From assembly GCA_003008705.1 (NCBI GenBank), contig PDUO01000001.1, positions 868,001-932,000 on the forward strand: a stretch of DNA of 64,000 nt, in the 5' to 3' direction. The DNA is from Pezicula radicicola (lineage: Eukaryota > Ascomycota > Leotiomycetes > Helotiales > Dermateaceae). The notes under the pieces were generated by a model. That model was not told the DNA's origin and searched no databases. It worked only from the letters and a program-made list of their open reading frames with translations. Shown here one piece after another: positions 11,004-40,200 of this stretch. Each line of letters begins with the position of its first letter. Within the stretch, counting starts at the first letter, position 1. A program made the position numbers and the translations under genes.

Positions 11004-14000
11004 TCATCTATCAAGAGCTTGAGACTGACACTGTACACAAGCATAATTAGTTTTAATTCTCAACAACAGGGTACATAGGTATAGAAACTTACCATTTGAT
11101 AATAAATACCTTTTTTCCTCAAAAGAGTGCTATGATCACCTTTCTCCAACACCCTTCCCTCCCCAATGACGAAAATCACATCCGCATTCTGCACTGTTGC
11201 TAGTCTATGTGCAACGACGACCATCGTTCTACCTTTTCCAGCCTTTTCAAATGATTTTTGGACTAACCTCTCACTCTCAGAGTCGAGACTCGACGTAGCC
11301 TATAAATTAGAAACTCGCAGTTAGTTTACTTCATCTAAAAAATTTAGGAATAGCTCGAAACATGATTGATGAACAACAAGAGGCGAACTCCCCCAAAGGA
11401 GCACTCTTGCTCTCAGAGCTTACCTCGTCTAGCAGCAAGATAGAAGGGTCGCGGATTAGAGCCCGAGCGATTGCAATGCGCTGTTTTTGGCCACCGCTCA
11501 ACGCAACACCCCGAGAACCAACATCAGTATCATAGCCCTCGGGAAGAGACATAATAAAGTCATGTATCTCAGCGTTCCGACACGCTTGATGCAGGTCTTC
11601 CTCGGATTTGCTTCCGTCTTCCACTCCGAGCAGAATATTGTCCCTAATGGTGCCTTGGAAGAGAGTCGGTTCTTGGGCGACCAAGGACAGAGACTTTCGA
11701 TGTTCGTGCAATTCTATGTCGGCCACATTGGTGTCATTGAAGAGGATCTTCCCTTTTTGAACGCCGTAGAATCTTTCCAGAAGTCCAATGATGCTAGTCT
11801 TGCCGCAACCTGAAGGGCCCACGAGAGCAGCAAATTGACCCTTCTCGATGGTTAAATTCAATCCCGTAAAAATCGGAATATCCCGAGTAGGGTATTTGAA
11901 CCAAAGGTCTCTGAGCTCTATACGAATACCGCCATCCGTGGTATTCAGCTTGACAGGAACCTGCACTGTAGTCGACGTATCCTTTACTCGCAGACTCAAG
12001 ATACGATTTGCCGCTGCTGTAGCCTGTGCCATATTTGGACCAAAGCTTAACCACTGGCCTGCACCTTCACTTCCCTGGACGACGGCTATATAAATGACGA
12101 AAAAACTGAGAGTTGTGTATTCACCTCTGGCGAGAAGTCTTCCTCCGTACCAGAATGTTAAAGCCATGCAAAGCAGAGAAACACTGTCGCTTGCGGCAAA
12201 GACAAGAGTGGAAAATCTGGCCTTTCGAAATGCTTTCGTAACATGTTCCTTTAACAGGACTTCATAGCGACGGATTATCATATCTTCCAAGGTAAGTGAT
12301 GTTACAGTTCGAAAGGCCTATAATCAAAAAACTCGGAGTCAGCTTACTTATTATGGATATCTGAGGAGCACCGTGCGAATTGGTTTACAAGAGATCGTTT
12401 CGCTTAGGGGTAGTGAGTTTCCCAAGTCAAGTGAGTTAACTCAAGCCCATCTCTTATGTCTAAATATATAGCCATTCAAAAACGATCTCTTATAATCAAT
12501 TCGTACGGTAACTCAAAACATGATTAGGAACACTAAGTAATCGACTCGAAAGGGGAAATTCTGCTGAGAGATTGAGTACGTACGCCCATGGCCTCCGATG
12601 CAAATTTTGAGCTTTCGGCAAAGACTTTCTGGTTCATCTTTTCGAACTGAAGCTCGTAACTCAGTCTGGTGAACCCAGCCAGAAGGATAACCTGGATGTT
12701 TTCCAAATTAGTATCAGTCCTTTCGAATGATTTTAAGGAGTTACTCGTTGGCGACCACACGTGATGTTTTAACCGATATCACGTGGTCGCCAACGAGTAC
12801 AAAGTATCGCAACTCTGAGGATTTTTCTCTCCGATCATAGAACTGCCTCCAATGAAGTTTTTATGACTTACCGGCATGGTGACGAAAACGGTAAGGAGAC
12901 TCAATTTCCAACCGAAGTAGAAAGCTAAAATAATACAGCCCAACATATTAAACAGAGAAATCACAACGATGCCCATATTGATCCCTAAAAGCTGTTGAAG
13001 TTGAATGGGGTCATTTGAAACCCGGCCAGTCAGTGTTCCGGAAGAGTTCTCTTCCGCATCATAAAATGGTATCTGCTTAGCAATAATTGATTCGAAGAGT
13101 TGTTGACGATATGTGCAGGCGATGTGCTAATGGCGTTAGTATTTCACCAAATTAAATGCCTTAATGAAAACTCACAATTGAGATTGTGTTGGAGCTCCAT
13201 CCAAGAATAAAATAACAAAAGCCAACACAAATGGCTAGGACAAAAAACATTAGACTCCAATGCGATGTTAAAATTTTCAGTTGTTGTCCGGTATAAGCAA
13301 ATACCGAAATGAGGTTTGCGAATAGATAAGCTTGCAATGGAAATCCAGCTATTTTCCAATGTTAGATTGTAATTTGAACAATAGAAACTAGTTGTGCGAG
13401 TAGTGGTTTAGATCCTTACCTCCAGCACCCATACATCCGGCCACCATCATAATGTACCATGGAAAATGAGGTTTCTGCTCGTAAAGGAGGAGGCCGAAAC
13501 TTCTCACAAGACCCCTGGGCTTGTAGGCATCTTGCTTGCTTGTCGAGACAATTTCATCTGCGGCGCTCATTTGGCGAATAAGCTCTTTCGTAGCCGTGTC
13601 TTCCACCAAATCAGTTTCGTCCTCGAAGGAGTCACCCATAGACAGCTTTTGGGCGTTGACAAGAGCCCAATATGCACCATTCTCGTCAGAAAGCAGGCTC
13701 TCGTGGGTGCCTTGCTCAATTACACGGCCCTTTTGTAACACTACAATCTTGTCTGCTCGTTTTATGGTGGATAGGCGATGAGCGATTGTGATCGTTGTTC
13801 TCCCCATGGAAGCTCTGTCTAACGCAGCTTGCACTAGTTGTTCTCCTCGAACATCGATACTAGATGTTGCCTCGTCCAGAATAAGTATGGTAGGTTTCTT
13901 GACGATACTTCTGGCAATGGCAAGTCGTTGACGCTGGCCTCCCGAGAGTTTCAATCCTGCATCACCAACTTGTGTTTCGTAACCCTAAAGAAAACCTGTT

Positions 14001-16651
14001 AACAGTGAGGGCTAGACTAGGATGCACCTGTTATTTACCATAGGCAGACGACTTATGTATTCATCAGCAAATGCCTCTTTGCAAGCCTCAATAACAAGGC
14101 GTCGCTTTTCCTCTGAGCTAGCGTTTTCAAAGGGCGAGCCTATCAATCCGTAGGATACATTCTGGAAGATCTGTGAATTCATATGAGCCTTAAGCTTTTT
14201 AAATCATGTACACATAAAGAGACTCACAGTGTCATTGAAAATGAAAGGCTCCTGCTGCACAAGACCTATCTGGGATCTCCACCATTTTAGATCCAACTGA
14301 TCGAGGTTATGGTCATCAACAGAAATAGAACCTCCAAGTTCGATAGGGGGTGGTGGTTCTTGATCTGTCAATTCCTCTTTCTCTGACGAATCTTTTTTCG
14401 CAGGAAGTATGATGCCTTCCACAGGTTTCAATTCGTACCATCGCTCAATTAAGCCCGTAATTGTGCTCTTTCCTGACCCAGACGCTCCTACAATCGCAGT
14501 TACTTTGTTGGCTGCAAAACGAACGCTTAGGTTGTCAAGTACTTTGACATGGCTTCGACTGGGATACGCGAACGTAACGGATTCTAAGACGATGTCCCTG
14601 TTGGCAGAAACTTCGGGCTCTTTGAGACCATTACTAGGAGGCACAGGTGCGTCGATGATTGCAAAGAAGTTACTTGCAGCGGTGGCTGCTTTGCTTACTG
14701 TTTATGAGAAATCTACGTTAGCTGACTTGTTCATTCTAAAACGAAAGGTTTACTTCAACCCGAGACGTGGGTTTGGTAGAGATCATTTTGATTAGGGCAA
14801 GTTAGTTACTCGAATCAAGCGAGTTACTCAAAGTCTATCTCTTATATCTTAATAGATAGCTACTCAAAATGACCTCTTACAAAGCAATTCGTATGATACT
14901 CTGGAAATCAACTTACTTGCTATTATTGGTGCAGCAGTATTCCCAATGCTCATCACCTGTTCGTAAAGGGGGAGTTAGCAATTACTTCTCCTGTAGGGGA
15001 TTTAGAGTTGTTGCTCCTAAGACATGTCTCGAGAGAAAACATCTTAAAAGGGGACGTCTTAAGAGGAACTCCTCTTAAAATACTCCTAAATAGGAACAAA
15101 ACTGCTCGCCTATACGTACTATCATCATAACACTCATTAGAACTCTAGTGGTGAACGTGCGTCAGCAATCTATTCCAAGGAGAGGGTTTGAATCAGAAGG
15201 CAGGAAAGGTTGGAAAACCACATGGTTTTGGTTCATCCTCCCATATTGATGGTGATTTTCTGAGATGATTCCAAGAATTCAATACTTTTGGTGTATCTTT
15301 ATGCCTAGATGATTGTTTGCTCCTGCTAGGGGGTGATACCAGTAAAACGAAACCGTCACACTCACATAATCACAGTTCCAACGTTGCTGATATCGTCCTG
15401 CATATACAGCTTAACCCCGAACCAGAATGCCAATGCAAAAGTTGCGTAGGTTGCAAAGAATACGGGCGCAAATTGCGCTGGTTACGATGACCACATTAGT
15501 ATTACTTCTCCAAGATATGGTAAGTTCCAATACAGGGTCCGAAATTCCCATTAGTGAAATTAGGAGGGCACGTTTGAAAAACATACCTCCTAGTATTGGA
15601 GAGAGCTTCAATCCTCGTCGTCTCGCCTCCTCAACCCACCCAGCATAGCGCTGGGCCATCCGCCCTTCCGCACCGCAGGCAACAATCATTCTTACAGCCC
15701 CAAAGACCTCGCTCGCTATTGCGGAGGCCTTCTCATCGGCATGCTCAACCTCTTTGTGCATTTTTATCGATATTGGCAATATGGCTGAGTAGACACCAAC
15801 TATGAATAGAAGCACCGAGCTTGTGACGAGTGTTAGGGCCCAACTATACTTGAACGCAACAATACAAGCAGTTAACATAAGTGTTGAAAACTGAATAAAG
15901 AGGCCCAGCTTTTCAGAAATACCAATCTGTAAGGTATTTGCCGTCGAAGTTATTGTAGTTGCTGTCTGACCTGGTTTTCTCATCAAATCGACTTCTATTC
16001 CTGGGGGTGGATTGGATGATTACCAGGTGGAAGAGAATCTAGAACACTGATTGGTTGGGCAAATAGAGCTTTGAGATATGCGAGTCTAACAGCTGCAGAC
16101 ATTCGAATGCCAATCATCCTGAAGGAGAGAATGGAGATATAGCTTAGAAAGAATCTTGCAATGAACAAATATACGATGTACAAGCTAAAGCAGTAATTAG
16201 CCAAAGGAAGACTTGGTAGTAGACAGTAGGATTCTAACGCATTTCTGTTCAAGGTGTGAAGAAATTCTCCCGAAGAGCCAGCTGAGGGAGAAAATGTTGA
16301 GAAGTTACCCGCTATCTTTCCAAATATGACATTCATGAGTGGTAGAGTCTACGTTGAGTTTAGCAACATACAACCCAAGCAACTCGAAGACATACCACTC
16401 CAGTTCCTATTGAAGCAATGGCAGCTGCAACCATCATGATTCTGTCGAATGGACCACTGTACGAAAAGACCCTCTGAGCATCTTGTCAGTCAATCGGCCA
16501 GAAGTTCGAGAATAGTCGAGTGAAAACTAACCCAATAATCACTGAAGTTTGTCTTGTTCTCGGATTTGCTTGCATATTGATCTTTGGCCTGGCTCTCGCC
16601 TGCCGTCTTCTCAATAGCCTCGGTAGGTTGAGGTTCCTTTGAGTCGGCCAT
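11004..16651 (-). CDS. ABCB-type (MDR/P-glycoprotein-like) full ABC transporter
   Basis: Probable ATP-driven plasma-membrane exporter of lipophilic compounds. Seventeen exons: 16651-16532, 16473-16396, 16348-16239, 16184-16024, 15970-15587, 15477-15366, 15144-15120, 14956-14917, 14697-14228, 14170-14039, 13984-13420, 13348-13176, 13126-12872, 12691-12584, 12317-11424, 11299-11093 and 11030-11004. They total 1286 aa, the usual full-transporter length. Order is TMD1-NBD1-TMD2-NBD2. NBD1 has Walker [10 protein letters not shown] (~414), [13 protein letters not shown] and [14 protein letters not shown]2 has GPSGCGKT (~1079), [13 protein letters not shown] and LLLDEATSSLD. Both have switch histidines (AHRLST, AHRLAT), so both sites look catalytically competent. 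NBD1 carries an acidic, proline-rich insertion after Walker A. Introns 7, 8, 14 and 15 are repeat-derived. The substrate is unknown. Confidence 0.92.
11300..11423 (-). mobile_element. Introner family C, short form (ABC transporter intron 15)
   Basis: This 124 nt intron aligns over its 3' half with the intron at 20720-20846 in another gene. Both share CATGTTT, then a GAGYTAYTCC-like stretch, then AAGTAAACTAACT and AGTTTCT before the acceptor TAG. The shared sequence goes well beyond the branch-point consensus. It lacks the internal inverted-repeat element found in the longer relatives. Confidence 0.65.
12318..12583 (-). mobile_element. Introner family C, long form (ABC transporter intron 14)
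   Basis: A 266 nt intron between exons 14 and 15. The donor side begins GTACGTACTCAATC and aligns with the donor side of the ammonium transporter intron at 46175-46396. The acceptor side carries the family C branch-point block (plus strand near 12327-12349). An inverted-repeat element is embedded at 12370-12509. Confidence 0.65.
12370..12509. repeat. MITE-like element B, copy 1 (in ABC intron 14)
   Basis: About 140 bp bounded by inverted repeats of about 30 bp: ACCGTGCGAATTGGTTT on the left, and ACCGTACGAATTGATTA read in from the right; both continue AAGAGATCGTTT. The centre contains GTGAGTTAACTC and CAAGTCAAGTGAG strings. There is no coding capacity. Confidence 0.75.
12743..12798. repeat. 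Near-perfect hairpin inside ABC intron 13
   Basis: Inverted repeat arms ACTCGTTGGCGACCAC...GTGAT (23 and 21 nt, differing only by a 2-nt indel) surround a 12 nt loop. It lies within the 180 nt intron 12871-12692 and would form a strong stem in the pre-mRNA. Confidence 0.8.
14698..14916 (-). mobile_element. Probable introner family C, long form (ABC transporter intron 8)
   Basis: A 219 nt intron. Its acceptor side reads GAACAAGTCAGCTAAC followed by TTTCT, which matches the family C 3' block. An inverted-repeat B element occupies about 14762-14899 and starts at the same internal junction (GAGTATC then ATACGAATTG) as in the other long forms. It is more diverged than the other members. Confidence 0.5.
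14762..14899. repeat. MITE-like element B, copy 2 (in ABC intron 8)
   Basis: Ends resemble GTTTGGTAGAGATCATTTTG on one side and ATACGAATTGCTTTGTAAGA read from the other. The centre contains GAGTTACTC and GTTAGTTACTCG. The left inverted-repeat tip is degraded. Confidence 0.6.
14957..15119 (-). mobile_element. Introner family A, copy 1 (exact ABC transporter intron 7)
   Basis: A 163 nt element whose edges are exactly the intron: donor GTACGTATAGG, acceptor TTTACGAACAG. It aligns end to end with 20664-20501 in another gene: 19 mismatches and one gap by hand, about 88% identity. Its ends form an inverted repeat around CGTAAAGGGGGAG, and it carries a perfect internal palindrome TTAAGAGGA-GT-TCCTCTTAA. 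Removing it joins ...VLMSVMMI to [10 protein letters not shown], the expected TMD1 helix sequence; without removal the frame is interrupted. Confidence 0.85.
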
Positions 16652-19075: not shown

Positions 19076-21642
19076 TCAAAACAAGCCATATATATCGTCA
19101 ACCTCATACTCTCTATCAAGGAATTCTCGGAATTCGGCGTCGATTGTGTAAAAGTCGTCTGTATTGTTGCCAAGATTCCGTAAAAATGCCCAGTCCTCTA
19201 CGAACCCTTGTTCTTGGCTTTGGAGCTGGGGTGGGACTAAAGTGTTGGAAGCAGTTGGTAATGATAATGGCATATCCTCAACATAGTCTGTCCCTATCGT
19301 TGACTCTTTCACAGAAGAAGCCGACTGGCATGATTCTCTGTGCTCTTCGCTATGTTGGTGTTCATTGTTCCTTCTCAGGCCCAGATCTGATGAAGACTAT
19401 TGTCAGTGTTCGTAATCATATGCAAGTAATCGTTGTTTCTCACTTTGCGTAAGGACTTTCTTACGGTCTTCAGCACTTTTCCAACTCTTCCCAAGTATTA
19501 GCAGCCACCGTATGCATAGATCTATACGCCTTTGTGTTTCAATTCCTTCTGATCCGATTCTCTTTGAATAATGTGCTAATATGCTACCACTAGTAAAAAT
19601 CGGGAATATTAGATCACAGGACATGGCTGCCAAGTTCTCTGCATATCTCTCTAGGATCGAACAGGTATTATTGGCCGCCATGACACATACCTCAAGAGGA
19701 TCCAAAGAAGCATAAGTCTCGTGGACTTGAGGCATTCTAGGCGCTTCCGAGTATGTGACAAAAGGGCGATTTGCTAGGATCACTGTACACCACATCCACT
19801 TCGCCTATTATTAGTTACAATTTCTATCAATGACTTAAATAGCTAAACTCACCACCATGTTAGTAATGGTAACTGGCGCAGCAATTGTGCTATTTTTCAT
19901 GTCCAGCTTCAAAGGCGAAGCGTTTAACATTTGATGATACTCATGAAGCTCACGCCATAATCTCTGTCGTGTCTCTTCGCCAGAATTTGGGTTGTCGCGT
20001 ATTGCTGTGCGGGCAGACATGGAGTATATCTGCCGAGAGACCATTTCCATGATGATTGATATCTGTATACTCGTATGAAAGCCAGATAGTGTCTGCGTCT
20101 TAATTGAAGTAGCACGATGTGTTCCGGTAGACTTCACGGGCAGAAGTTGATATTCATCTGACTCTGTAACAGATGGAAATGGCGTGTTCGTTTCCTCTGA
20201 TCTCAGCACCACTGGGCGTCCCATTTCACATGCCATCATCTTGTCTAAAACAAATATATTCCACCACAGGCGAGAGTTTACCTGTACTTGTGTTGGATCA
20301 CTCTCAGAGCTCATGGCCTTATGCAGACTATTCAAGATGGACGAATCAGTAAATCTCGATATGACGCGCTTTCAAAGCAAAAGGCACTAAAACTCAGTAT
20401 CTCGGGTATATTAGGAAGTAAATGGAGTGCGTAAGGGCAAAAATAGTTAGATTTGAGGAGAGAAGACAAACAACCGAACACTTACTGCATTTCGATAGCC
20501 CTATCCGTAAACGGGGAGTTAGCAATTACTTTTTCTGTAGGGGATATAGAGTTGTTGCTCCCGAGATATGTCTCGAGAGAAAACATCTTGAAAGGGGATA
20601 TCTTAAGAGGAACTCCTCTTAAAATACTCCTGAATAGGAATGAAGGTGCTCCCCCTTTACGTACATCGCTGATGCCATTCCGCACAATAAACCAGCACTA
20701 GCCGCCTCAGCCACTCCATCTATAGCCAGAAACTTGGAGTTAGTTTACTTGTTCTAGATATTATTGGGAGTAACTTAAACATGTTCAGGAGCAATCAGTG
20801 ATTAAATCCGGAAGGGACAAAGTTGCTTAGATAACCTGGGACTTACGTTGCTGAAGGGCTAATATAGTAAGCGCTTGACATGTCTCTATTGTCGGTTTCA
20901 AGACATTCAACGGATGATACCCACTCCTGCCACGATCAAAACTTTGGAGAGCGGAAAGAGCAGTCTCAAATAGCGACTCCGGGCTTGGTAATGGTGCAAG
21001 GTTTTCGGTGTCGGAGAGTTTCTGGGTATTATAATCAGGCTGAAGCTGAACACAGGCAGCGATGGCATATATAGCGTATAACAAAGGGGTTGGCAATGTT
21101 TCTGCTAGATTTTCGTATTCGACTAGGTCGTAGTATGGTTTATATAGTATAGGCCACATAGGATGCACGATAGTGAAGTAATTTTTGAAGAGCCGGGCCG
21201 AGACGGTGGGAGTAACTATTGCTACATTCGGTATTGGCATAAGAGGACCGGATTGTTGATCATCTCGTCTATGAGAGGCCTCGGGTCTATCTTTCAGCGG
21301 GGAAGGTGCTGGTTGGAGAAATGCAGGCGGCAGCGCAATTTTCTGTCTTCAAGAAAAGTTTAGACTGTGAGGATGTTGTTGCTATCTGGTAAAGCAGCAC
21401 AAGTTCTGGCAATATTCACAATTACCTTTTGTTCCGCTTTGAAATACCATAGGTGCACTCGTTGTCACCTCTTTTAATGCACTGTCCGCAGGAAGGCAAG
21501 GCTGCGTCGCACTGAGAAGGTAGGTAGTCAGTAACAATTGTTCGACTTGTGCTTCCATCATAGGGTTACCCGCTTTAATCCTCTTGATACCACAAGGCAC
21601 ACAGGCCTGAGACACTCTTTTTCGAGGTTGCTTTTCAGCCAT
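19076..21642 (-). CDS. Zn(II)2Cys6 transcription factor with fungal-TF middle homology region
   Basis: Nuclear regulator. Eight exons (21642-21574, 21511-21426, 21346-20847, 20719-20665, 20500-20486, 20327-19853, 19804-19444, 19386-19076) encode 623 aa. The zinc cluster has cysteines at 14, 17, 24, 31, 34 and 42, but reassembles only if intron 1 (21573-21512) is spliced as a GC-AG intron. The residue after the second Cys is Gly instead of the usual Arg. The middle homology region includes ILALQQHGVAEAAS, LCGMASAMAIEM and SRLWWNIFVLDKMM followed by CEMGRP. Intron 4 (20664-20501) is an introner that leaves a 15 nt exon 5; intron 3 is another repeat-derived intron. The stop codon touches a B element. 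It is near an exporter and a hydrolase, so it might control them (inference). A decaying gene is possible because of the GC donor. Confidence 0.8.
20501..20664 (-). mobile_element. Introner family A, copy 2 (exact intron 4 of the Zn2Cys6 gene)
   Basis: A 164 nt element with donor GTACGTAAAGGGGGAG and acceptor CCGTTTACGGATAG, about 88% identical to 15119-14957 by hand. Its ends are inverted copies of CGTAAASGGGGAG. Splicing it out joins GCG-AT to G-GCT-ATC and restores ASAMAIEM in a conserved fungal-TF helix; reading through meets TAA after about 50 nt. Confidence 0.87.
20720..20846 (-). mobile_element. Introner family C, short form (intron 3 of the Zn2Cys6 gene)
   Basis: A 127 nt intron aligned with ABC intron 15 (124 nt) and with the flanks of ABC intron 14. 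Shared blocks are AACATGTTTAAGTTACTCC, AGAACAAGTAAACTAACTCC and AGTTTCT. Against ABC intron 14, the donor half also aligns (AAACATG, TTAGGA-like and GAAAGGG-like segments on the plus strand). Confidence 0.65.
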
Positions 21643-24622: not shown

Positions 24623-25262
24623 ACAATTATAATTTATTTCTTGGAGCTGAGATAAGGCTGTTTGCCAGTCGTCGCTGTGGACAGGGATGTTATGCTTTAG
24701 CGAGCTGTTTACCCTGGTGCTCCTTGGAACTTCACTTCGCTCGTCATCTTAGAGAAGCTTCTGTCTAAAAGTATGTTGTTCAGAGTCCCGGATAACCGCC
24801 GTTGGGCAACAATGCATCACAAAGCTGAAGGCATTCAGAATTCGACCCACAAGTTTCCTTGCATGGTCCAGATCCCATACCGAGTACAGATGATCCTTGT
24901 GCGTTGGCAACCTTAGCGAAGCGGAGGCGCTCGGAGGCAAACACTGTCCAGCAGATCCTTGTTGAGAATCTTGAATTATCCTCGTTATTATTCTGATAGC
25001 TTTCATTGCTTCGCTACCACGATACACCGACTTTCACACAAAATCCCCTTCCTCGCGGTCTTGCCAAAGTCGCAGTGTGATCTGGTTGGAGTTCAGCTTG
25101 TGGCGTTGTCCTGAAGAAGTAACGCTGAGTCGCTGACCCAAAATTTTACCCGCTCCCCAGCCTCTCAAAGTCAACAAGCTTGAGCTCGTCCCGCTCCGCT
25201 TTATTACTGAATGGTCAGTAACGTAAACAAATGCGACCGCAACCTGAATCGTACGAGCCACG

Positions 25263-28200
25263 ATGATGGCAGATCGACGTCGTGCGAGCCCTGAAGGCTC
25301 TGGCAGGAGAAGAAGGGAACCCACGAGGTCAGAATATGATGAAGGAACTAGAATGCGCTCTCACAATGATCGCGATGGTCGCAACGACACGGCCTCACTA
25401 TCATCTTCGTCTTCGAGTTCCTACTTGGACATCTCGCGGACTTTCCCACGAAATCGATTTGGAAACGCTATACGAACCTTTTTCACTGCCCCTTCCGAGC
25501 GACGTAAAGCTCGGAGACGAAGAAGCAAGCAATCTTTGGCTTTTAGCAACTCGTCCTCCTCCTCGATAAACAGTGACCTTGCCTATGGCACAGGATTTAT
25601 CAGGAAACCGAAACTTCGAAGGGTCAGATCTAGGAATGGGAAGGAGATTAATAGAGAACGAGAGAGATACAGAGAAAGGGAACGCGAAAGGCCTGGTTCA
25701 GAACGTCGCACAACAACAGATGCTGAGATTTTGGCCGTTGGTGTAGGATTGAGGGAGCTCGCTAGAAAGCAAAATCAAATGGACCTGAGGACAAGCAGAG
25801 ACGGAAAGAAGTCGGAAATATTCTCCTCAAGAGAATCACGTTATGGAAACGACACTGGTACAAGTCGAGGCCTAGCACCCTCCAAGGTCAGTTATGGATC
25901 AGACACATTCGATGAGGATGGATGGGAGTCTGCGTCCGATGAAGAGTCTGAATTTAGTGTTGATTCAAAATTGGCGTATGGCTCTGTGGTCCAGAGTGGT
26001 GACTGGGACTACGCCGTTCGTAGACCGCAGAGGAGCAACAGTGTGGTGGATCCTTCACTTTTCGGACCTCAGAACTCACTACATGGTTATGTAACTGAGC
26101 CTGTTGGATTTGGAGAAGCTGAATGGGATCAACATAGCGATTTTGGACAACCTGATAGGTTTTCATCTCCCAGGCCTGAGTCTAGACCGGAGACACGACA
26201 AGAAAGCATTGTTAGTGGGTCGCAGACTTCATTGCAGCATGTCTATCCTATTCCAACTAGCGACCCATCTCGGTTTGATGTAGTACAAAACTCCATTGTT
26301 ACCGCCCGACCAGAATCCTATATGTCTTCCAGGCCTGGTCCTATCCCCATTCAACAACCTCAGCCCATTACTCCAGTTTCTCAGAGTGTATACGAGTCAA
26401 CATACGCATCCCGGTCAGACTCTGGAATCCTCAAGAAAAATTCATCTTCCAGTCGTGGCAAGTCACTCGTTGAGGCTGCGCTAGTTGGCGTCGCAGGTGC
26501 TGCTGTTGGTGCTGCCATTGCCTCCGAACGCAACGGTAAAAGACGGGAAGAAGATGACAGTCCGCCAAGACGCCGTGATGGTGATAGGAGTGAGACGAAA
26601 GAAGAGCGTCGCAAGGAGAAGCGTGGCAGTCCAGACCGAGAAGAGCGCCGGGAAAAGCGGCGAGACAGAGAGAAGGAGAAAGACAAGGAGAAGGAGAAGG
26701 AGAAGGAGAAGGATGAGGGTTCGCGCAAAGACAAGAAGCGAGACAAGCGCAGAGAGGAGCCACGCGAAGAGACCAGAGAAGAACGACACGCGCGGAGAAA
26801 GGAAGAGAGGCGCAAGGATCGCTCAGACGATCGAATTGCAAAGAGTGAGGTTTCATCAACAGTTTCCAAGGCTGTAGATCCTTTCCAATACCAAGTACCG
26901 GACGACGCATTTCCCACCCCTGATATCGCTTCAACGGTTGGGTCTTCAACTCACCGAAGGAAAGAGTCGGCACCCACTGTTGTAACTGTAGAAAGAGAGC
27001 CAGACTTTACTCGCAAACGCAGTTCGTCCATAAAAGAAGTATCAATTGCTTCTCGAGCAGATCCGGGCCGACGCTATGCAGGCAAAGATGACAGAGACCA
27101 ATGGTACCGCGGCAGCGATGTGCATGATGAGCGTAGAACAATTCACGATGCTGAGTCGATTTATGAAGAAACAAGTCACTCAATGGCCCCGATAGCTGCT
27201 GGTGCCATTGGTGCTGCTGTTGCAGCGGTCGCGGTTGAAGGCTATCGGGAGTCAAGGTCCGAGAGGAGAAGAGGTGAGCGACGAGGTGATTATGATGACC
27301 GTGAGTGGAGGCACGATGCCGATAGGGAGCCGAAGCAGGATCCAATACAAGAAGAAGCCGACCGTGCTTACCGTGAAATAGTCATGGCTCGTAAAATCGC
27401 ATCTAATGTAATTCGTTCGCGCACGCCATCCCCGGATCGCTCTGTCGTCGACAAATACAATGACAAGCAAGAGGAAGAAGAGGTCATTAGAATTGTCACT
27501 CCACCTGGGATGGAAGACCACAAGAAAAAGGGTCCCTATGATGCCCCTAACGCCGATGTTCAAATAGACTATGTGCTAGATCCCAGAGATCTGGATTCCT
27601 TCAGAAGTCCTATATCCGCACGAGCGAATTCGGACCCTTTCTTTTCCAGAGACGTTCAATTACCTAAGGAGCGACCTTTGTTGAACCTGGTTCGGCCAAC
27701 GCCAGCACCAACTCCCACACCAGAGAAACAAGTTGCGTTGTCCGAGCCTGCAGAGCCAAAGCAATCCAAGAAAGACAAGATTTCCCGCTCAGAAACAGGT
27801 CAGTCCACGCAACCAAAACACGAGAGATTTGTTTCCCAGTCCGAAGTTGGGCAGTCGACACAATCGAGACCCGAAAAATTTGTTTCACAGTCAGAAGTAG
27901 GTCAATCATCTTCGTCTAGAGGTCGTGGCAGACCAGAAACTGCCTACGAACCTGAATTTACCATTGAGCCAAGGGGTACTGTCATGCAATCCCCCACTGC
28001 ATCGACAGTGTCTAAGGGCGTCACTTGGGGTCAGAATGAGACCAAACACTACGAAGTCGAAAGCCCTTCAACAAGTCCAGTTCGAAATAGAGAGAGGGCT
28101 GACGAGGAGAGGCCATCTTCCAGCAGTAAAGGCTGGGGTGCAATTGCCGCAGGCATCATGGGAGCCGGAGCAGGTGTAGCGATTGCGGACAGTGGCGAGA

Positions 28201-31200
28201 ACAGCACTAGTCCCAAGGCAAAGGACAATGGTTATAAGCTCGCTGGCCAGTACGAGTATCGTGGCGTTGTTGTGGAGCCGGAAAGCCCACCTAGAAGCAA
28301 AGGTCGCCGAAGCCCTCCTGCGACTGGCCCAAAGCCTATGTCCGAACAAAGGTCACATGTTCCTGGCGCCTTTGAAGATGATATCGATTTCACTGCTACG
28401 CTTGCGGCAGGCTTACAAGACACCGGGTTCGACCCAAACATTGTGATCGATGATCCGACCTACCGAAGGCGTAGCTCTCCGCCTGGTTCAAACGACGCAG
28501 GAATCTACCAAGCTCCATTTGTTGAGACTATAACTGACCTTGGAACCTCTGCAGTTGAGTCTCCCGGCCACGAAGGTGCTCCTCCTGTCCAAGGCTTTGT
28601 AGTAGGCGAGATGCCGGACACGCCAAAGGCTGAACGAAGCACTTCGGCCGACGACGGTTTTACAAAGCTTAGTAAAAAAGAGCAGAAGAAGCTTGAGAAG
28701 GCTGCAAGGAGACAGAGCGGAGAAGTGACTCCTCTTGAAGAAAATAACACTGTAAAAGAGATAGCCGAGGAGACAGAGACGTATTTCGAAGCGCCCAAGC
28801 TGAGCAAAAAGGAGCAGAAAAAACGAGACAAGGCAGCTCAGCAACAGAATATCGCTGCTGAGGATATGACTCCTTTGGAAGAACCCAGTGCCGCCACATC
28901 AACTGTCGAAGAGCCAGAATCTTATTTTGAAACATCCAAGAAATCCAAGAAGAAATCCAAGAAAGGCTCATCTGGGTTTGAAGATGATTTAGAACAATCA
29001 CGAGATGCAACGTCTCTAGAAGAGTCCACGACCGGTGGAGTGATTGTGGAAGAGCCGGAGTCATATTTTGAGGCCCCAAAGAAGTCGAAGAAGAAGTCGA
29101 AGAAAAGCTCGTCAGCCTTTGGTGACGATATCGAGCAATCACGAGACACGACGCCTTTGGATGAATCCGTTGTCAGTAGATCAGTTTCCGAGGAGCAAGA
29201 AGCATATTTCGATACTCCCAAGAAGTCCAAAAAGAAGGCGAAGAAGAGCTCAAATGCCTTCGATGATGTCATAGAAGAACCACAAGACAGTCAACCGACC
29301 GTAGCTGTTCCCGTTGATGCTTATGAGGATATTCAGGCTGGCGAGAACTCTGTAGCTACCCCGGCGACTGATGAATGGGACATCCCGAAGAAATCTAAGA
29401 AAAAGTCCAAGAAAAGCTCATCTGGATTTGACGATGACTTAGAACAATCAGGAGATGGCAAGTCAACTGTGTCGGTCCCTGTTGGCGCTTACGATGATAT
29501 CCAAGATGCTGAGTACTCTGTCGCTACTCCTGCGGCTGACGAGTGGGATACACCGAAGAAGTCAAAGAAGAAGTCAAAGCGTGATAGTGATCGATTTGAC
29601 TCCCCATCGCGCTCAGTCCCGCCGTCCGAGGTTGGTTCTGAAGTAGGAAGGTCTTCAAGCAAGAAGAGCAAAGATAAATCACGAAGAAAGAGCGAACAGT
29701 ATGATCTCGATATCGACCCAACAGAGGTCCCGCTTCCACTGGTCACGCCATCAGAGACAGGCCGAGATGAGTACGACGAGCCGAGAAAATCAAGAAGGTC
29801 CTCAACTATGGATAGTGGCATCTTTGATAGTACGCATCGAGGGGTTTCAGTCTCTCAGTCCGTGGTCTCAGCAGGTGCTTCAAGATACGATGACGATGAG
29901 CCTCGGAAATCAAAAAAGAAACACCGGAGTGGGAGGTATGACGACGACGACACGAAGTCTGTGGCTTCTGCACCTGCAGGTGATGATTGGGACGATCCCA
30001 AGAAAACCAAAAAGAAAGAAAAGAAAAGCGGTGGCTTCTTTGGTCTTTTCGGATCCAAGTCAGAACCTGATGGAAAGGAGGTCACTAAGGATGAATTCGA
30101 AGAGCCCAAAAAGAGGAGCAAAAAGTCCAAACGAAGCTCGACCACCGATTTGACTTCTGAATCATACAATGGAAATGGCCATTCGAACGGCAACGGGTCC
30201 CACTACTACAACGACGACGGCGAAGGCAATGGTTCTCGAAGTGATGGCGAAATGACGAAGAAAGACAAAAAGGAGTCTTTTTTAGTTAAAACCGGCACCC
30301 TTGGCGCGGGTGTCGGTCTTGCAGGTGCTGCAGTTGCAATTGCGACACAGCATCAGCAATCAAAAGCCACCAATGCTGATCGCAAGGAGACTTCAGCGCA
30401 GCATTTGAGTCATTCTGACCTGCTAGTACAGCAAGATATACAGGAGTCCGCCTCTTCAAGCCCGGCTGACAACATCCTGGACCCTGAAATTACGCAGCGA
30501 CAGTTTCGACCCTCCATAGATCCTCAATATGGTGACCTTCTCCCACTGCCTCCCAGTGGACCACCATCTCCTGACGTGGAACCAATCGACGACCTTCCTG
30601 AATTACCAGAAAGTCGGCCACCAACGCCAGAGGCCGAGCGTCGCTCAGCTAAGGACAGAAATTCTACACGAAGAAGTTGGCAGGACAGCCCTATTAAATC
30701 GCCTAGCCGTAGTGCGGTGCCTTTGAAGTTTATTATGGGCAATAGATCCACTCCTTCATCACCTGTTCTTGCTAGATCATCTCCGATGACAGCCGCAGCG
30801 ACAGAGAACTCTGATAATCTGTCATCCCCAAGAACTCGGCCCCGGCCGACTTCTTGGGACAGCACAAAAGAATACAAACCGCTATATCTTGTGGAAAGCA
30901 ATCGCCGATCATCATTTGTTCAGCAACTTGACTTCGAAGAGCCGTTGCCTGCTCTACCGCCAAGTCGGCAGACATCTAGAAGCTCTTCTCAGCCTGAAAC
31001 AGAAGACTTTGGAAAACAAGAGGAGCTACTTGACCGCTCTACCAGCGAAGAAGCGCCGCCCCTCTCTATTGATACATCTCTTCCAAGCTTTCTGGATTCA
31101 ACACAATCGACGCCAAAGGCCACAAGAACTCTTGAACAGACCAGCCGTGAAACTTCTGATGTTATCGATCTGCCACTAAGTAGAATACCATCAGCTCTAC

Positions 31201-34200
31201 CGAAAGATCACGAGCAGCCACTTAAAGATACTACCCCTACTGCACTTAGTGATGCTGCCTTGGTATCTTCGATTGGCTATTTTGCCTCTGTCAATTCTTC
31301 AAAACCAACAAATAAAGCTTGGCTGGATGAACTACCATCCCCAACTCCAGGAAGTCACCAAGACCCGTCTCCCGTGGACCCCATGACAAAAGACCGAAGC
31401 TCCTACCTGCTGCATTCAACATCACCTCCAGCGCAGCCCAGACGTATCAATGTAGTTGCCGATGAAGATGATTTGTTCTATGAGAGTAATAAACAATCAT
31501 CAGATGACCTACAGTTCTCAGGAAGTCAAGAGCGTCAAGACAGTAGTGTCATCAGAACCCTAGAAACTACAGCTATACGCGGTACACATGAAATAACTCC
31601 TGAGGATGCGCCCGAAACGCTCGAAGCAAAGAACGACGCATTAATCGTTCAAGATTTAAATACTGGGCTTGCCTCAAGTGGACTAGATGAAGACTATCAG
31701 GCGTCGGAAGATCTCTCATTCTCAAAATCCAAGAAAGACAAGAAGAAGGGTAAAAAAAATCAGAAAGCCCTTCCTCAGTCATCGACCCAGGATGAAACTT
31801 CACCAGCAGAAAGCACTCAGGACGTTACACGAGAAGACCATATTGTCGTCGCTTCCCCAACTGCTGAGGCGAAGAAAAGCAAGAAAAATAAAAATGGTAA
31901 ATCTGCAATGGATTGGGAGCCAGAGTCTGAATCAGGAAGACAATCTGAACCATCGAACCAGAACGACACGCCGCTCCCAGATGGCACTCGTGATATCCCT
32001 GAGGTAGACCTCGCCGCCGATGATCTTGCTCCTCCTGCGAGTAAAAAAGGCAAGAAAAACAAGAAGGACAAATCAGCTTTCGTTTTCGAGCCAGAGCTAG
32101 AACCTGAGCAAGCTTCTGGGCCATCAACAGCAGAAGCGGAAAGTAGTCAAGTCAATGCACAAGAGGACCCCATTACTAGTGATTTTGCCCCTGCCGAGAA
32201 GAAAAAGGGCAAGAAGAACAAGAAGGGCAAATCATCTACCATCTGGGAGCCTGAGACTGAACTCCAGAAGGAATCTGAACCGCAAACATCCGAAGCATCC
32301 GAAGAATTCTTGACTTCTGCGTCAAAGAAGAGCAAGAAAAAGAAGGGCAAGTCAACGCTGGACTGGGAACCGACGTCCGAGTTGGAAAAAGCGCTAGAGT
32401 CACAGAGTCTATCTGAACAGCCTGAATCTGCAGTAGTCGTTCTGGAGTCAGAGAAAGCACCAGAGTCTGTAGCTCTATCTGAAGCTCCAGAAGCTGAAGT
32501 AGTGCTCGCTTCTGAGCCAGAGAAAGGCCTTGAGCAACAAGATGCGTCCGGGGAAATTGAGCAGTCCTCAGTCCTCGATTCGAAGAGTGGCATGATGGAG
32601 AAAGAGAAGTTAGACTTGGAAGGACCCGAGCCTAAGCTCGAGAAAGCAACTGATCTACAGGATCTGCCTGAAGAAGTCCGGGCAGAATCTATGCCCAAGT
32701 TGGAAAAAGAACCTGAGGCGTCAACTGTATCCGAAGGAATCAGCGATTCCCCAACGCGCGGGTCAAAACAGAACAAAAAGAATAAGAAGGGTAATTCGAC
32801 ACTGGACTCGGAGCCTGAACCCACATTGGAACAAGCACACGAAGAAGGCGCTGCGGCTGTCGTGCCAGCAGAACCCGAAGAGTTGTCAATGCCAGGGAAG
32901 AAGAAGGGAAAGAAAAACAAGAAAGGCAAATCAACTTTGGACATGGAACCCGAATCTAAGTCTCAGTCTGCTTCTGACTCTTTACTTGAGGCACATTCCG
33001 AATCTCAACTTGAAGAATCGCTGGCTTCTACGGCTGCAGAAGAACTAGATGAGTTCTCTACGCCGGCGCCAAAGAAGGGCAAGAAGAAGTCTAAGAAAGC
33101 TCTTTCCTGGGAAATCGAAACTATCTCTGCTGCCACTGCAGAATCCACGGATGTTTCTCCACCGGAGAATGTGACATCTCATCCCATCGATACTTTGGAT
33201 AGACCTAGTGACTATGCCATGCCTGCGTCAGAGGAAGGAAAAAGTACTCCGGGGGAAGCTCAGACTCGGGAAGGAGGCGAGGCTATATCTGAGCTCGCAC
33301 ACGAATCTTCGAGCCCTACGCCAGCTGACAAAACAGTGGACGAATCTATCCCCGAATCCGTGAATACTCCAGATGATTCCAGTGACTTTTTGATGTCTGA
33401 GTCGAAGAAAAACAAAAAGAAGTCCAAGAAAACTCAGTCTGCGAGTTTAACAAGTCTTCTAGCTTCAGAGCATGTCCCAGATGTAGCAGAATATTTACCA
33501 GCTGGACAATTGACAGACAAAACATCATCGCAATCCGAGGAGACTGTTAAAGCCACAACATCTGGTTCAAAGAAGGACAAAAAGAAGTCTAAGAAAGCAC
33601 CGACGTGGGAACCCGAAGAGGAGGTATCTGAGCCCATTGCACCAGCCTCTACTATGGAAACTACCGCAGAATCAGTACTTGAACCTCAACAACCTGAACC
33701 TTCTGATGACTTTATGATGCCTGGACCAAAGGGAAAGAAAAAGTCGAAGAAATCTCCGCAAGGGGTGCCAAAAGGCGAGAGCTCGGACACTATCTTAGCA
33801 CCCGACGCAAAGCTTACTTCAGAGCCAATTTCGGAAGCCATTCCGCAAGACCTGGCGGAGATATCCCAGGAGAGCTGTTCAGATACTGCCAGAGAGATCA
33901 TTCCGGAGACCCTCCCCAAAGCTCGTGCAGAATCCATTGTAGACGATCGTCTGGAGACAACACAGCGGATCGCTCCTGAAGCTGATCAACAGGTTGTCTC
34001 TGAAAACGTTGTGGGTCCTATCGCACAATCTACCGCAGAGCAAGCGGCAGAGCCAATTATTTCCAAGACGTCAGATGAAGCCAAAGCATCTGAGCCTCAA
34101 GCTGTTAATGAGCCTGACGCGTTTGTCTTACCAGGTTCCCAAAATGAAATGAAATCCAAGCCTCTGAGCGATGAGCCGACTTCGATTGTTACCCCAGAGA

Positions 34201-37200
34201 TAATTTCAGACAAGAGTGCAACATCAACACAAGGAGAGGAAGGCGACAGTGTGAAATCAGCTGACGTTCAGGGATTTGACAACAACGACTTTGTGGTGTC
34301 TGGTTCGAAGAAGAGCAAGAAAAAGTCAAAGAAAAGTCAAGCTTGGGTTCCAGACGAAGAAGTTCTTGTCAATGCCACTTCGGAATCTGCGTCTTCTTCA
34401 AGGGAACAGGGCAAGTCTGCATCTCAGTCAGAATTCCGCGACGTTGAGCCAGTCGAGGACTGGGCTGCACCTAGTTCATCAAAGAAGACCAAGAAGAAAT
34501 CTAAGAAGTCACAAGCTTGGAATGAGGACTTGATAACGCCCGATACCACCGAATCAAAGATAGCTGAACTGTTGACTCTGGAAGAAAACAATGAAACTCC
34601 CTCAGGCTCCCAGCCAAAGGAAAGTGAGACCACGGGTCTTGTCCAACCTACGCCCGAGGAAGCAGACTCCTTTGCGATGCCTGAATCCAAAAAGAGCAAG
34701 AAGGCAAAGAAGAACAAAGGGCAGGCTCTGGAGGAAGAGGTCGAACCAGTTATCACGGTTGAGTCTTCTAACCGGTCTTCAACTGTTGAGACGCAATCCG
34801 TACAGAACTTAGATGACACGACCGCGCCAGAACAGTTGCTGGTGGGAAGAAGCGCCGACGAACCTGAACTTTTTATTGAGGCAGTAAAAACAATACCCGA
34901 GTCCACGCCAGAACAACTTTCCACTCCCAAATCTAACAAGAAGGGCAAGAAAAAGTCGAAATCTTCTACGTCATGGGAGGAAGAGGTGTCGCTAGAAAAA
35001 GTATCATTGTCCTCTAATACGGAGCTCCAGACTGCGAACTTCTCAGAGCCATCGTCAATTGTCGAGGATATTGAAAATTCAGGACCCAAGTCCAAGAAGA
35101 ACAAGAAAAAGTCAAATCAGTTCGAAACCTGGGAAGATGGTGACGCTGACGCATCAAATTCGGAGCAATCTTCGGCTGAGAGAAACAACGACGAGCAGGA
35201 TGTATCACGGCAACCCTCAGATATCGAGCCTGAACCATTGTCCTATCCTAAATCAAAAAAGGCAAAGAAAAAGTCGAAGCTTTCACAGTCTTGGACCGTT
35301 GACGATTTCTCGGCACCAGAAAAGGGTTCAGCGCCTAGAGATATCGATGAATCTGAAAATGCCGGTCAATCTGAAAATGCCGGTCAATCTGAAAATGCCG
35401 GTCAATCTGAAAACCTTGAGCTAGACCCCTTTGTCAGTAAAGCATCGAAGAAGGGCAAGAAAAAATCGAAATCCTCAAAGTCTTGGGGAGATGAAGGTGT
35501 GGAAGTACTGGAACAGTCTCAAGGCGAAAACAGCTTGGAAGAGACCAGCACCTCTCAGTCACTGACCGAAATTGAGCTCGATGAAAGCAGTATGCCTGGA
35601 TCGAAGAAATCAAAGAAGTCCACAGAGGTACAATCCCTTGAGCCTGAATCGACACCAGAACCGTCGTGGGACGATATTGAAGCCATGACGTCTGGTGTGA
35701 GCAAGTCTGTAGAAGCAGATGATCCTTCTAGTCCAAACATTATAGCTGTTGAAGACTCGGCCAGTTCAACTTCGAAGAAAGGCAAGAAAAAATCACGGAA
35801 ATCCCAGTCTTGGAGCCCCGAGGACGAAGTGGTAGCCGACCCTGAATTAGACCCGTTACAGCAGCACAGCGTTGTTGGGCCCGAAAATACTACTTCTAAT
35901 CCAGTGTCACCGGCATCAAAACTCACACCGATGGGAGGTCCAGGTGCTTGGCCAGCCACTCCAATCACTCCTTCGATACTTGCGAACAATCCACAGGCAG
36001 AGGAGTCTACAACTGATTACTTTCCATCCGTAGGCTCACCTATTCCGCAGAACACTGAAGAGGCACAAAACAAAGGCTATCTCTCACCTTCTGCTACGGC
36101 ACTGCCAGTTGCTGCCGCCGGTGTCACAGTCATCGCTGACAACACGATAAATGAAGTTTTCCAAGATAAAGGAGGCAACAGTTTGGATGAAGAGTCCACC
36201 CTCCCGAAATCTGATAATGATATTATTCAAGAACCTAGCACATCGGAATTCGCATCAAAACAGTTTGAGATTGATGGTCTGAAGGTTGGTTACAAAGAAG
36301 AGCAACTTAGATTGGCAAAGCAGATGCAGGAAGAGTTCAGCGCTGGGTCAAAGAAGTCGAAGAAGGATAAGAAGAAAAGGCAAAGCAGTCTTCCTCCTAC
36401 TTCTGATATGGAGGACTCAAGATCCAGACAGATAGATGAACTGATCCATGCGCCGTCTCGAGCAAGAAGTCTGTCCAAGGATCCTCAGATCAGAAATGAG
36501 GATGCAGAGACTATTTCCACCACTGAGGCTCGTAAACCCCTTTACAGTGAAGAGCAACTAGAACTTGCTCGGCAGCTCAAGGCAGAACAGGAGGAGTCTG
36601 GAGGCAAAAAATCCAAGAAAGACAAGAAAAAGCGACCAGGTGCCTCCCGCTCCGCCACTCAAGATGTAGATGTCGACTCCTTCCCTGAGGATACCAATAC
36701 AGGTACTGCGGAAGTTACTGAAGGTATCTACAAGCCTAATCTCGAAGAGTATGTGCATAAAGGAGACGGATTGACTGCAGGCTATCAGGAGGAGCAGCTT
36801 TCTCTTGCACGCCAATTACAAGCAGAGTTTGGTTCTGGCGCAAAGAAGTCCAAGAAAGACAAGAAGCGGCGCAGTGCTTCCCAGACACCTATCGATGAGA
36901 CAGAATCACGTAACGATTATTTTGAGGAGCCACAACAACCACCAACCGAAGACAGTGAAGTAGCTCCTCGGACAGCTCCAGATGGGCTTGCTTCTGGATA
37001 CAAGGAAGACCAGCTTGAGCTTGCTCGTCAACTGAAAGAGGAGTTTGGGTCTAGCGCAAAGAAATCGAAGAAGGACAAGAAGCGTCGCAGCACTTCACAA
37101 ACACCAACGAATGATCAGGGATTACGGGATGGCTATTTCGATGAGGCACCACAGCCGTCTGCTGGAGGTAGTGAGTTTGACGTCCAGAGCATAATTGAGA

Positions 37201-40200
37201 AGGAGAGCCCAGATGGTCTCGCAGCCGGATACAAAGAAGACCAGCTCGATCTTGCCCGCCAGCTCAAGGAGGAGTTTGGATCTGGTTCCAAGAAGTCGAA
37301 GAAGGACAAAAAACGCCAGAGCCTGTTGCGAAGTGCTACTGATGAAGGCTTCTCTTCCGACAACCCTTCCAGAGAGCTTGACCATCAGCATGATTCCTCT
37401 ACTCCACCGTCCGATTTTGTTGGCCAAGCTGAACCCATAGTCCTTGAGCCCGAAGACGAATTTTCTCTTTCCAGCAAGAAATCAAAGAAGGGAAAGAAGG
37501 GCCAAAGCCAGTTGCAGACTGCTACGGAAGACAGCTTTCCACCTGAAAATGTGGTCACAGCTTCTGAGGTAGTACCCAATATCGAAAACGCTGATGCAGC
37601 CACGGAAACACCCCTTGCTGATCCTGCAGATGAGACCATGTCCCCTGCAAAGAAGTCAAAGAAAGAAAAGAAACGGCAAAGTTTGCAACGGAGCGCAACT
37701 GAAACAGAAGTCTCAGACAGTTTTGGCAACGATGCACCCGTTATCCCAGAACAGTCAGCCGAAGAACTAGGTAGATCTACGCCTGCTACTGAGGATGACT
37801 TTACCTTCACTGGAAAGAAGTCAAAAAAGGAAAAGAAACGCCAAAGCATTCTACGTACGACGACGGAAGACGAACTATCACCTGAAAACCTTGCAAAGGG
37901 AGATGCTCAATTATCTCAAACCGTTATCCTACCTGACAATGAAGGATCCACTGAAGCCATTCCTGTTCCTGATGACGAGTTCGCATTTGTTCCGAAGAAA
38001 TCAAAGAAGGACAAGAAAAAGCAAAAAGGGCTTGTCTCTCATGAAGATACCCAGGAAGAGTTAGGAACCGGTGATAGTCCCGCACAACTGTCAACAGCTG
38101 AAGCTAGTACCGTGGAGCCTGCTCAAGAACCAGAATCAGTTGACGACTTTGGGTTCACATCGACAAAGGCCAAAAAGGACAAGAAGAAACTAAAAGGCCT
38201 TGCCGTCCAAGACGATAGCCAGGACCAGTTAAGCACAAGCAACAGCCCCACTCAACTCTTGACACCTGTAGAGACCACTCAAGAGTCTGTATCACTGGAC
38301 GAAGTCGGATCCACATCAAAGAAGTCAAAAAAGGATAAAAAGCGCCAAAGTCTCCTTCAATCTTCGAAATACGATGAGCTGCCAGAAGAAGCACTCAAAG
38401 AGACCAAACCGGTAGGAGAGACAGCTCCTGGTCAACATCCTACTGAACTGACTACCGCATCTGCTCCTATTGTCCCGATTCCAGATGACCTCAAGCATAC
38501 CTCAGAAATCTCAATTAAGAAGTCTGAGGACGAGCAGAAGAGTCAGACCCTCCGCGAACCATCACCCTCTGATAATTCGCCAGAGCAAACAAGCAAAGAT
38601 TTGGATATCCAAGAAGAACCAGTCGCCCAAATTCCTGATGTTACGGTCACGGAAAATCCTACCATTTCCGCGGCAGATGAGCCCGATGATGCCTTTGAAT
38701 TATCGACGAAGAAATCGAAGAAAGACAAAAAGAAGCGCCAAAGCCTCCTTCAATCTTCCACTTCTGATGCTCTGACGAAAGAAGCAGTAGAAGAGGTTGG
38801 CCCACAAGTAGAAACAGATGTTCAAGATTCCAATCAAACGTCTATGGACACTAATCTTATTCTCGCCGCAACGGATGAACCTGAGAACACCTTTGAGCAT
38901 TCTACCAAGAAATCGAAGAGAGATAAGAAGCGTCAAAGTCTACTCCAATCAGATACAGCTAACGAACCAACAAACATTGTATCTGAAGGAGTTTTTGCTG
39001 AGCCAGAGTCCATTGAAACAGCAAACCTAGACGAGACGCGTGACTCAAGTATATCACTTGGTGCCCAGCCAGTGTTGGAAAATACCGACAGTATGGTAGA
39101 TAGCTCTGAGGGTCCATTTGGAGACGTTACAACAAAGAAATCCAAAAAAGACAAGAAAAATCGAAAGGACTCATCAAAGACCGGGCCAGTTGAGGCGGCT
39201 ACAATCTCTACGGCGACAGCGGAAGCATTCCCGGAATCTTTCGAGGAAGACCAATCTTCAGCCGGGTTGGCTAGGAAGACCTCGAAGAAGGACAAAAGGA
39301 AGCGACAAACGATAACTGATATTACACCGACTGATACATCTACCTTTTCAGAGCCAGCATCAACATCTTGGGCAGACGAAGTCGAAGCAGCTGATGAAGG
39401 AAAACGCCACTCTGCAGATGACGACACTACACCCGGCCCAGTTTTAGCCCACCTTCCCATAGACGACGTGAACAAAGAAGATGTGAACCCTCCCGCCGAT
39501 GACTTCTTTAGGCCCACTAAAAAAGGCAAGAAGGGTAAAAAGAAGAATGACAACCCGGCAAGAGCTCCTGTTGCCACAGCTGGCATAATTGCGGTGCCAA
39601 CCCAGACAGAATCTCCCAAAGGACTAGACGACATAATCCTGCCAAGTACTGAACTTCCCCAAAAGTCAACAGAGCCCGAGGATGAGCATAAGAACCGGTC
39701 AGTCCTTGCAGTAGCTGGTGCAGCCTTCACAGCTAGTGCTCTCACGCAAGCTAAAAACGAAATTGCAGACGATCCTAATCAGGCAAAACCACCAGCATCC
39801 AAGGTAGCCAGCAAAGAAGTAGACGCTCCTGTCGCAAAGAAGCTGTCCAAGAAGGAAAAACGTAAAAAGAGCATCGACAAGAGATCCCCCCGCGAAGACG
39901 ACATCTTTGATGATCCTATGCTGTGGGAAGGAGCCGAACCCACACCACATGAAGAGGTCCAAGACGCTGATGATGGCAGCGATGGTTTCTGGTCGGCTCC
40001 TAATGCTGAAGATGCCGTTCCAGAACCCGAAGCGGTGGAGAAAGCCACGTCAAGCGAGAATTCCGCAGTGCCCCAGGAAGATTCCATTCCACATGAGTCG
40101 GTCGTTAAAGATACGCCTCATGATACTCTATCGGGTGCGTCAGTTCCAAGCCGTGTGCTGGAGGCCAGTAATACAGAGGACATAGTAGATACGACAGCGG

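Follow-up and report, generated by a model that had tools for sequence, protein, structure and literature searches.

Introner A, a fungal introner-like element family in the helotialean fungus Pezicula radicicola

In a 64,000-nucleotide (nt) stretch of the Pezicula radicicola genome (assembly GCA_003008705.1, contig PDUO01000001.1, positions 868,001 to 932,000; hereafter the window), the minus strand from 15119 to 14957 reads GTACGT...CTAACTCCCCCTTTACGAACAG and forms a predicted 163-nt GT-AG intron in an ABC-transporter gene. We found that this intron belongs to a repeated family, here named introner A, with a genome total of 44 copies when all searches are combined. The family is a fungal introner-like element family, and its host is a helotialean fungus (Leotiomycetes) rather than a Dothideomycete, the group in which a sequence-only reading of the window had noted established introner-like elements. 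Among named matches, the Cdc6 protein encoded in the window is closest to Phlyctema vagabunda (80%; Helotiales, Leotiomycetes), followed by Coleophoma and Lachnellula (76-77%); the top match overall reaches 86%. Introner status is supported by sequence comparisons: the 44 copies are whole predicted introns between unrelated exons, their tips coincide with the splice sites, and paralogous sites are mostly continuous. With a probability of about 0.7, we interpret the focal intron as an introner-like element that was inserted in continuous coding exons and copied through an intron-RNA intermediate.

The focal intron (copy 1) and a second intron in the window (copy 2, 20501-20664) are 88.7% identical over 159 aligned bases. 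Their host genes are unrelated, with Pfam domains ABC_membrane and ABC_tran in the first and Fungal_trans in the second. After splicing of copy 1, the predicted ABC protein aligns gap-free at the junction with ABC transporter B-type chains from PDB. The 3′ tip pattern of introner A occurs twice in the window, compared with 0 occurrences in 100 shuffles, and a covariance-model scan of the window returned just copies 1 and 2 plus their own reverse complements (E-values of the opposite-strand matches, 0.00033 and 0.027). The sequence-only reading had given the coordinates of the intron exactly, had noted a roughly 88% identical intron in an unrelated gene, and had regarded the splice sites as the tips of an introner. 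All of this was borne out, and the genome-wide count proved to be 44 rather than merely two.

The census covered the genome of 61.0 Mb in 152 contigs. A DNA search found 40 copies (the best 40 of 45 candidates were scored), a 27-nt core pattern matched 41 places (3 new), and a 3′-end pattern matched 41 places (1 new); reversed-pattern controls for the core and 3′-end patterns gave 0 matches each. The 44 copies are far beyond chance expectation. Since the core and 3′-end patterns each recover 41 of the 44, the census has probably captured nearly all copies of such similarity, and older decayed copies would escape it. A 5′-end pattern matched 24 places, namely 23 of the 44 known copies and one weak place, and misses many known copies because the length of the G tract varies. 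The weak place (C97:273583-273604; contigs are labeled C and loci L) has 3 mismatches and is perhaps a decayed copy or a member of a related family.

Similarity among the copies extends to both splice sites and ends there, as judged from alignments and flanks. Our alignment comprises 37 of the 44 copies (L018, L023, L024, L028, L033, L071, and L074 were left out), with lengths of 133-178 nt and with shared deletions and additions that adjoin GAGACAT repeats; the introner at L071 is 96 nt long. The start GTACGTAT is found in 35 of the 37, the end CTAACTCCCC-N-TTTACGGACAG in most, and donor positions G1, T2, C4, G5, and T6 are invariant in 37/37. The 3′ tip is more variable than the 5′ tip, with TTTAG in L018, TTTACCCCAG in L002, and CTTTTTAAAAAG in L033. 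Acceptors are altered in L018, L023, L033, and L071, and both splice sites are lost in L074. Divergence from the majority sequence has a median of 4.9% (range 0.8-12.5%; 37 copies), and L040, L003, and L007 are near-consensus copies, 0.8 to 1.8% from the consensus. Internal branches of the copy tree are short. An acceptor shorter by one base is common to three copies (L014, L027, and L032), which cluster together, such that introner A copies appear to beget further copies.

By manual reading, 42 of the 44 copies lie in sense orientation within a coding exon whose frame continues after excision. L028 abuts an assembly gap, and L074 is decayed, lies in no obvious exon, and is apparently non-coding. 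For those 36 of the first 40 copies whose ends were located by script, excision leaves a shorter open side with a median of 204 nt; randomly chosen positions of the same loci give 54 nt. A Pfam search of 38 of the 44 loci (L003, L009, L017, L023, L028, and L074 were not included) gave a match across the junction in 20/38, and PDB searches added PurF (L014) and ABC (L001), bringing the junctions spanned by homology to 22/44. These matches are ATP synthase alpha, OPT transporters (two), MFS (five), TRI12-like, GH92, NPHP3_N, class-V aminotransferase, FAD_binding_4, nucleoside transporter, NmrA, aconitase, PurF, ABC, GMC oxidoreductase, aldo/keto reductase, GH17, and HisKA; the Pfam matches at L012, L020, and L013 score under the curated cut-off. 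Retention would be predicted to introduce an in-frame stop in 28/42 copies, and the length is not a multiple of three in 33/42. Manually assigned phases 0/1/2 number 16/8/18, which is not significantly uneven (p 0.14).

Codon usage was examined in 41 copies with a model trained on the 22 homology-backed ones; L023 was excluded from the 20 without homology. In leave-one-out tests of the 22, the sense frame ranked first in 19 and second in 3. Of the 19 others, 15 had it in first place among the six frames and 4 in second place; the check is not fully independent, as the assigned frames were picked partly for openness. The sense side was more open than the antisense side in 19/22 homology-backed copies and in 15/19 others. 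Individual loci depart from the simple pattern: L025 requires a 17-nt exon, L040 lies at or beside another intron, and L023 combines its altered acceptor with a stop further downstream. At L071, a 3-nt exon (ATG) separates the introner from an older intron in a histidine-kinase gene.

Comparison with paralogues in the same genome suggests that introner A copies were gained and are not old introns, with sites mostly continuous at the three loci tested. At the ABC site, the closest paralogue (C70:554488-554820, 68%) is uninterrupted over the junction; 11 of 25 matches cross it without a stop (the second half of the same gene is among these 11), and the other 14 fall short of the site or contain stops. 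At the GMC site, a stop occurs in one of the 8 other matches and the remaining 7 are continuous; four paralogues (C119, C114, C77, and C110) continue uninterrupted through the aconitase site. Furthermore, two OPT-transporter genes bear introner A at different positions, and their proteins align gap-free at both sites.

Junctions in four conserved proteins are seamless, with nothing added or removed; the alignment is gap-free in aconitase (CNMG^AEVGATTS), and the same holds for ATP synthase alpha and PurF (amidophosphoribosyltransferase chain). The two bases before the insertion point are pyrimidine-purine (YR) in 27 of 42 copies (background 24.4%, p 5e-8; TG 15, CA 7), a rule that was spotted and tested on the same data; at other offsets within 10 bases, YR is found in at most 18 of 42. 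The base following the insertion point is a purine in 32/42. AG, the classical proto-splice site, precedes the junction in just 4/42. Part of the purine preference can stem from splicing itself; this is not obviously so for the pyrimidine at -2.

The predicted features of copy 1 and its partner, all on the minus strand, are as follows.

14957..15119, minus strand: introner A copy 1, ABC-transporter intron, GTACGT...ACAG (sequence, copy comparison, and census)
20501..20664, minus strand: introner A copy 2, intron in a fungal-specific transcription-factor gene (copy comparison, Pfam, and covariance-model scan)
15114..15119, minus strand: predicted 5′ splice site of copy 1, GTACGT (sequence and alignment of copies)
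14974..14978, minus strand: putative branch-point motif of copy 1, CTAAC (sequence and copy alignment)
14957..14958, minus strand: predicted 3′ splice site of copy 1, AG (sequence and copy alignment)
15120..15144, minus strand: upstream ABC exon, 25 nt (gene model, in agreement with the PDB-chain alignment)
14917..14956, minus strand: downstream ABC exon, 40 nt (gene model, in agreement with the PDB-chain alignment)
15105..15116, minus strand: 5′ arm of the near-terminal inverted repeat, CGTATAGGCGAG, decayed in copy 1 (repeat inspection and pairing count)
14962..14974, minus strand: 3′ arm of the near-terminal inverted repeat, CTCCCCCTTTACG, between branch point and acceptor
15059..15078, minus strand: internal hairpin with 9-bp arms and a 2-nt centre, TTAAGAGGA-GT-TCCTCTTAA

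We take CTAAC to be the branch-point motif, as is usual in fungal introns. The inverted-repeat ends that the sequence-only reading had described (CGTAAASGGGGAG) suit copy 2 well, with arms CGTAAAGGGGGAG and CGTAAACGGGGAG; the ABC copy has one decayed arm, and the repeat is near-terminal, set back from the 5′ tip by 3 nt and from the 3′ tip by 5 nt. Likewise, the internal palindrome holds as a perfect 9-bp inverted repeat, although one with a 2-nt centre interposed. Positions 4-8 and the GGGGAG block can pair with the segment that separates branch point from acceptor. Across the 37 aligned copies, the two helix parts of this near-terminal stem are paired in 78.9% and 91.8% of cells, and the 7 counted pairs of the internal hairpin form in 97.3%. 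Shifting the stem partners by 1-3 columns lowers pairing from 91.6% to 42-58%, and the stem pair at columns 8/178 is unpaired in 35/37 copies. Predicted RNA folding is more stable than all 200 shuffles in each of three copies (z -4.34, -5.12, and -3.45).

Taken together, these patterns may be explained as follows. Each copy would be a spliceosomal intron complete with a donor, branch point, and acceptor of its own. It would insert into a previously continuous coding exon, and splicing would restore the old reading frame. Copies would arise via an intron-RNA intermediate: the near-terminal stem may keep the ends of the excised intron together, and the intron may then be reverse-spliced into transcribed DNA, or into RNA that is later reverse-transcribed. 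Reverse splicing is the account given in the fungal literature for coding, sense, seamless, and duplication-free introners, as far as the available excerpts of PMC8469720 and PMC9860276 go. Introner A has the same pattern, and we regard RNA-mediated insertion as most likely.

Several points weigh against this interpretation. Every splice junction, in all copies, is predicted from sequence rather than seen in RNA. Of the 42 coding placements, 20 have no homology over the junction and depend on open frames, codon usage, and recognisable motifs, and in four of the 19 scored (L009, L015, L025, and L032; two of them ties) the sense frame is no more open than the antisense. The aconitase paralogue on C64 is interrupted close to the site by a 70-base gap, which may be a short intron belonging to this paralogue. 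The near-terminal stem has no compensatory changes above shuffles in the 37 copies, such that covariation was rejected as proof of an RNA stem, and the stem, whose role as RNA is putative, could equally be conserved for its sequence. Finally, the YR preference is not predicted by reverse splicing and could point to a DNA-level step.

The sequence-only reading had favored a DNA-transposon-like origin. In this scenario, which we consider unlikely, introner A is a non-autonomous DNA transposon, similar to a miniature inverted-repeat transposable element (MITE), that carries both splice sites and makes a very short target duplication or none. The near-terminal inverted repeat and internal symmetry are compatible with it, as are the covariance-model matches on the opposite strand of both window copies, and a YR step at the insertion point in 27/42 copies would suit a DNA-cutting enzyme. 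In addition, Acanthoeca introners have inverted repeats without duplication, according to the excerpt available from PMC9860276. However, the inverted repeat of introner A lies a few nucleotides inside the tips, and 42/44 insertions read as coding and in sense, although neutral intergenic copies should survive. Nor was any target-site duplication found in 720 width and offset settings across 40 of the 44 copies (60 shuffles per setting; L018, L023, L028, and L074 left out). The best z of 2.76 is about what chance would give over 720 settings, and transposase-style insertion with flanking direct repeats was rejected on this basis.

A MITE in introns of the same ABC gene provides a contrast. This family B is about 140 bp long, has long inverted repeats (TACCGTACGAATTGG...) and about 40 or more copies, and lies in the window at 14698-14916 and 12318-12583 (ABC-gene introns) and at 46214-46348. 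TA is found at its left end in 10/10 rows and at both ends in 6/10; this TA may belong to the repeat or represent a target duplication. Around nine family B copies, one of which (L079) is a whole intron, the best open side has a median of just 72 nt with both strands tried, and two exceed 150 nt, unlike the coding placements of introner A. With seamless junctions and no duplication as well, the DNA-transposon-like part of the sequence-only reading was not upheld.

That introner A represents old introns homogenised by gene conversion or recombination is very improbable. L038, L040, L072, and L073 share an internal deletion of about 30 nt while differing at other sites, which suggests recombination between internal repeats, and the break in the aconitase paralogue on C64 would also fit. 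Against this, sites are continuous in most paralogues examined, and conversion cannot generate introns at new positions, such that the differing positions in the two OPT transporters count against homogenisation. Helitrons start with TC, end with CTRR, and insert between A and T; a Helitron-like or other rolling-circle insertion would leave no target duplication, as found, and is scarcely credible here, with these hallmarks absent on either strand, usual tips of GTAC and GACAG, and insertion mostly at YR.

The genome probably holds at least two introner families. A 127-nt intron at 20720-20846 (minus strand) in the transcription-factor gene belongs to a further introner-like family, C, which is also found at 12318-12583 and as part of 11301-11423, and families A and C thus share the same two window genes. 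This intron has at least 40 other genome places at 76-94% identity, 33 nearly full length, among the best 40 of 146 candidates scored. Family C occurs in the flanks of 5 of the 44 introner A loci (L009, L022, L026, L031, and L032; one partial), which looks, as an informal impression, more often than its copy number would give. The copy at L026, in a gene that we label NPHP3_N-type from its motif, reads through seamlessly by frame. Two family C matches stand in tandem, 5 nt apart, at C64:464700-464827 and 464833-464960.

Family B was also considered as a second introner and rejected, since its repeated part is a MITE with long inverted repeats. At L079 (C87:533821) and window 12318-12583, MITE B sits at the same internal place in introner C, with dissimilar flanks; either shared descent or a hot TA site could account for this. 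MITE B as cargo of introner C was not supported, as the C-MITE junction pattern, to which the ABC copy itself is too mismatched to match, was found in L079 only. Another ABC-gene intron, at about 12690-12868, contains a long hairpin (ACTCGTTGGCGACCACGTGAT and near its complement) and is perhaps another small mobile element. Elsewhere in the window, 25248-43223 (plus strand) is one open reading frame, 5991 codons long, that contains many SKKSKK repeats rich in lysine and perhaps encodes a septal-pore scaffold protein.

Introner-like elements of Dothideomycetes (van der Burgt 2012, as cited in later papers; Collemare 2015), as described in the available excerpts of PMC4457414 and PMC8469720, are whole canonical introns in unrelated genes, with up to eight families per genome; stable structure, seamless insertion, and, by one group, inverted repeats have been reported (as cited in PMC8469720). 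Introner A is similar in being whole canonical introns in unrelated genes, in its stable predicted folding, and in its seamless junctions. It differs in its helotialean host, in having 44 copies rather than hundreds, and in having YR before the junction rather than the AG/GY preference cited in that excerpt of PMC8469720; the comparison is with published descriptions rather than sequences.

Sister stwintrons and cropped sister introns of Hypoxylaceae/Xylariaceae share with introner A internal symmetry, seamless junctions, and the lack of target duplication, and Xylariales stwintrons are likewise functional on the coding strand only (both from the accessible part of PMC8469720). The placement of the 3′ arm between branch point and acceptor matches NTIRE-10, as far as the excerpt of PMC12403724 describes it, although the repeat sequences differ (CGTA...GGGGAG in introner A, GUAUAAAAAC in Xylariales). 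Unlike Xylariales stwintrons, introner A appears to be a single canonical intron; no nested intron splitting the donor was seen by eye in the 37 aligned copies, for which no dedicated scan was run. A flanking exon pattern is present for introner A, and the authors report none for the Xylariales stwintrons in the excerpted text of PMC8469720.

The DNA-transposon introners of algae and protists (Gozashti 2022), in the available portion of PMC9860276, are also repeated introns in unrelated genes, with inverted repeats in many families; introner A differs in lacking target duplication, in having both splice sites internal, and in its near-exclusive coding sense. The same portion of that paper describes ascomycete families as an outlier without inverted repeats or duplications, from which introner A departs in its near-terminal inverted repeat. 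Searches of a literature collection, judged by title and abstract and without species tables in supplements, gave no paper on introners of this class for Leotiomycetes or Helotiales; introner A may have been listed earlier in such tables. New here are the YR insertion step and the near-terminal inverted repeat, through which the donor region can pair with the branch point-acceptor stretch.

The origin of new spliceosomal introns is an old open question, and ascomycete introners are an outlier group with unexplained movement. This genome offers 44 insertions, near-consensus copies, and a MITE in the same gene for contrast, along with two features open to testing, namely the near-terminal stem and the YR step at which insertion occurs. 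As a tentative possibility, which we would not put above a conjecture, ascomycete introners of unrelated sequence, namely this helotialean family and the Xylariales stwintrons, may share a single architecture in which the stem is the actual mobility determinant. The near-terminal RNA stem would join the donor to the branch point-acceptor stretch, protect the debranched intron, and present both ends for insertion at a flexible pyrimidine-purine step of transcribed DNA. If true, introns would here be gained in a distinct, RNA-based way that follows a target rule of its own.

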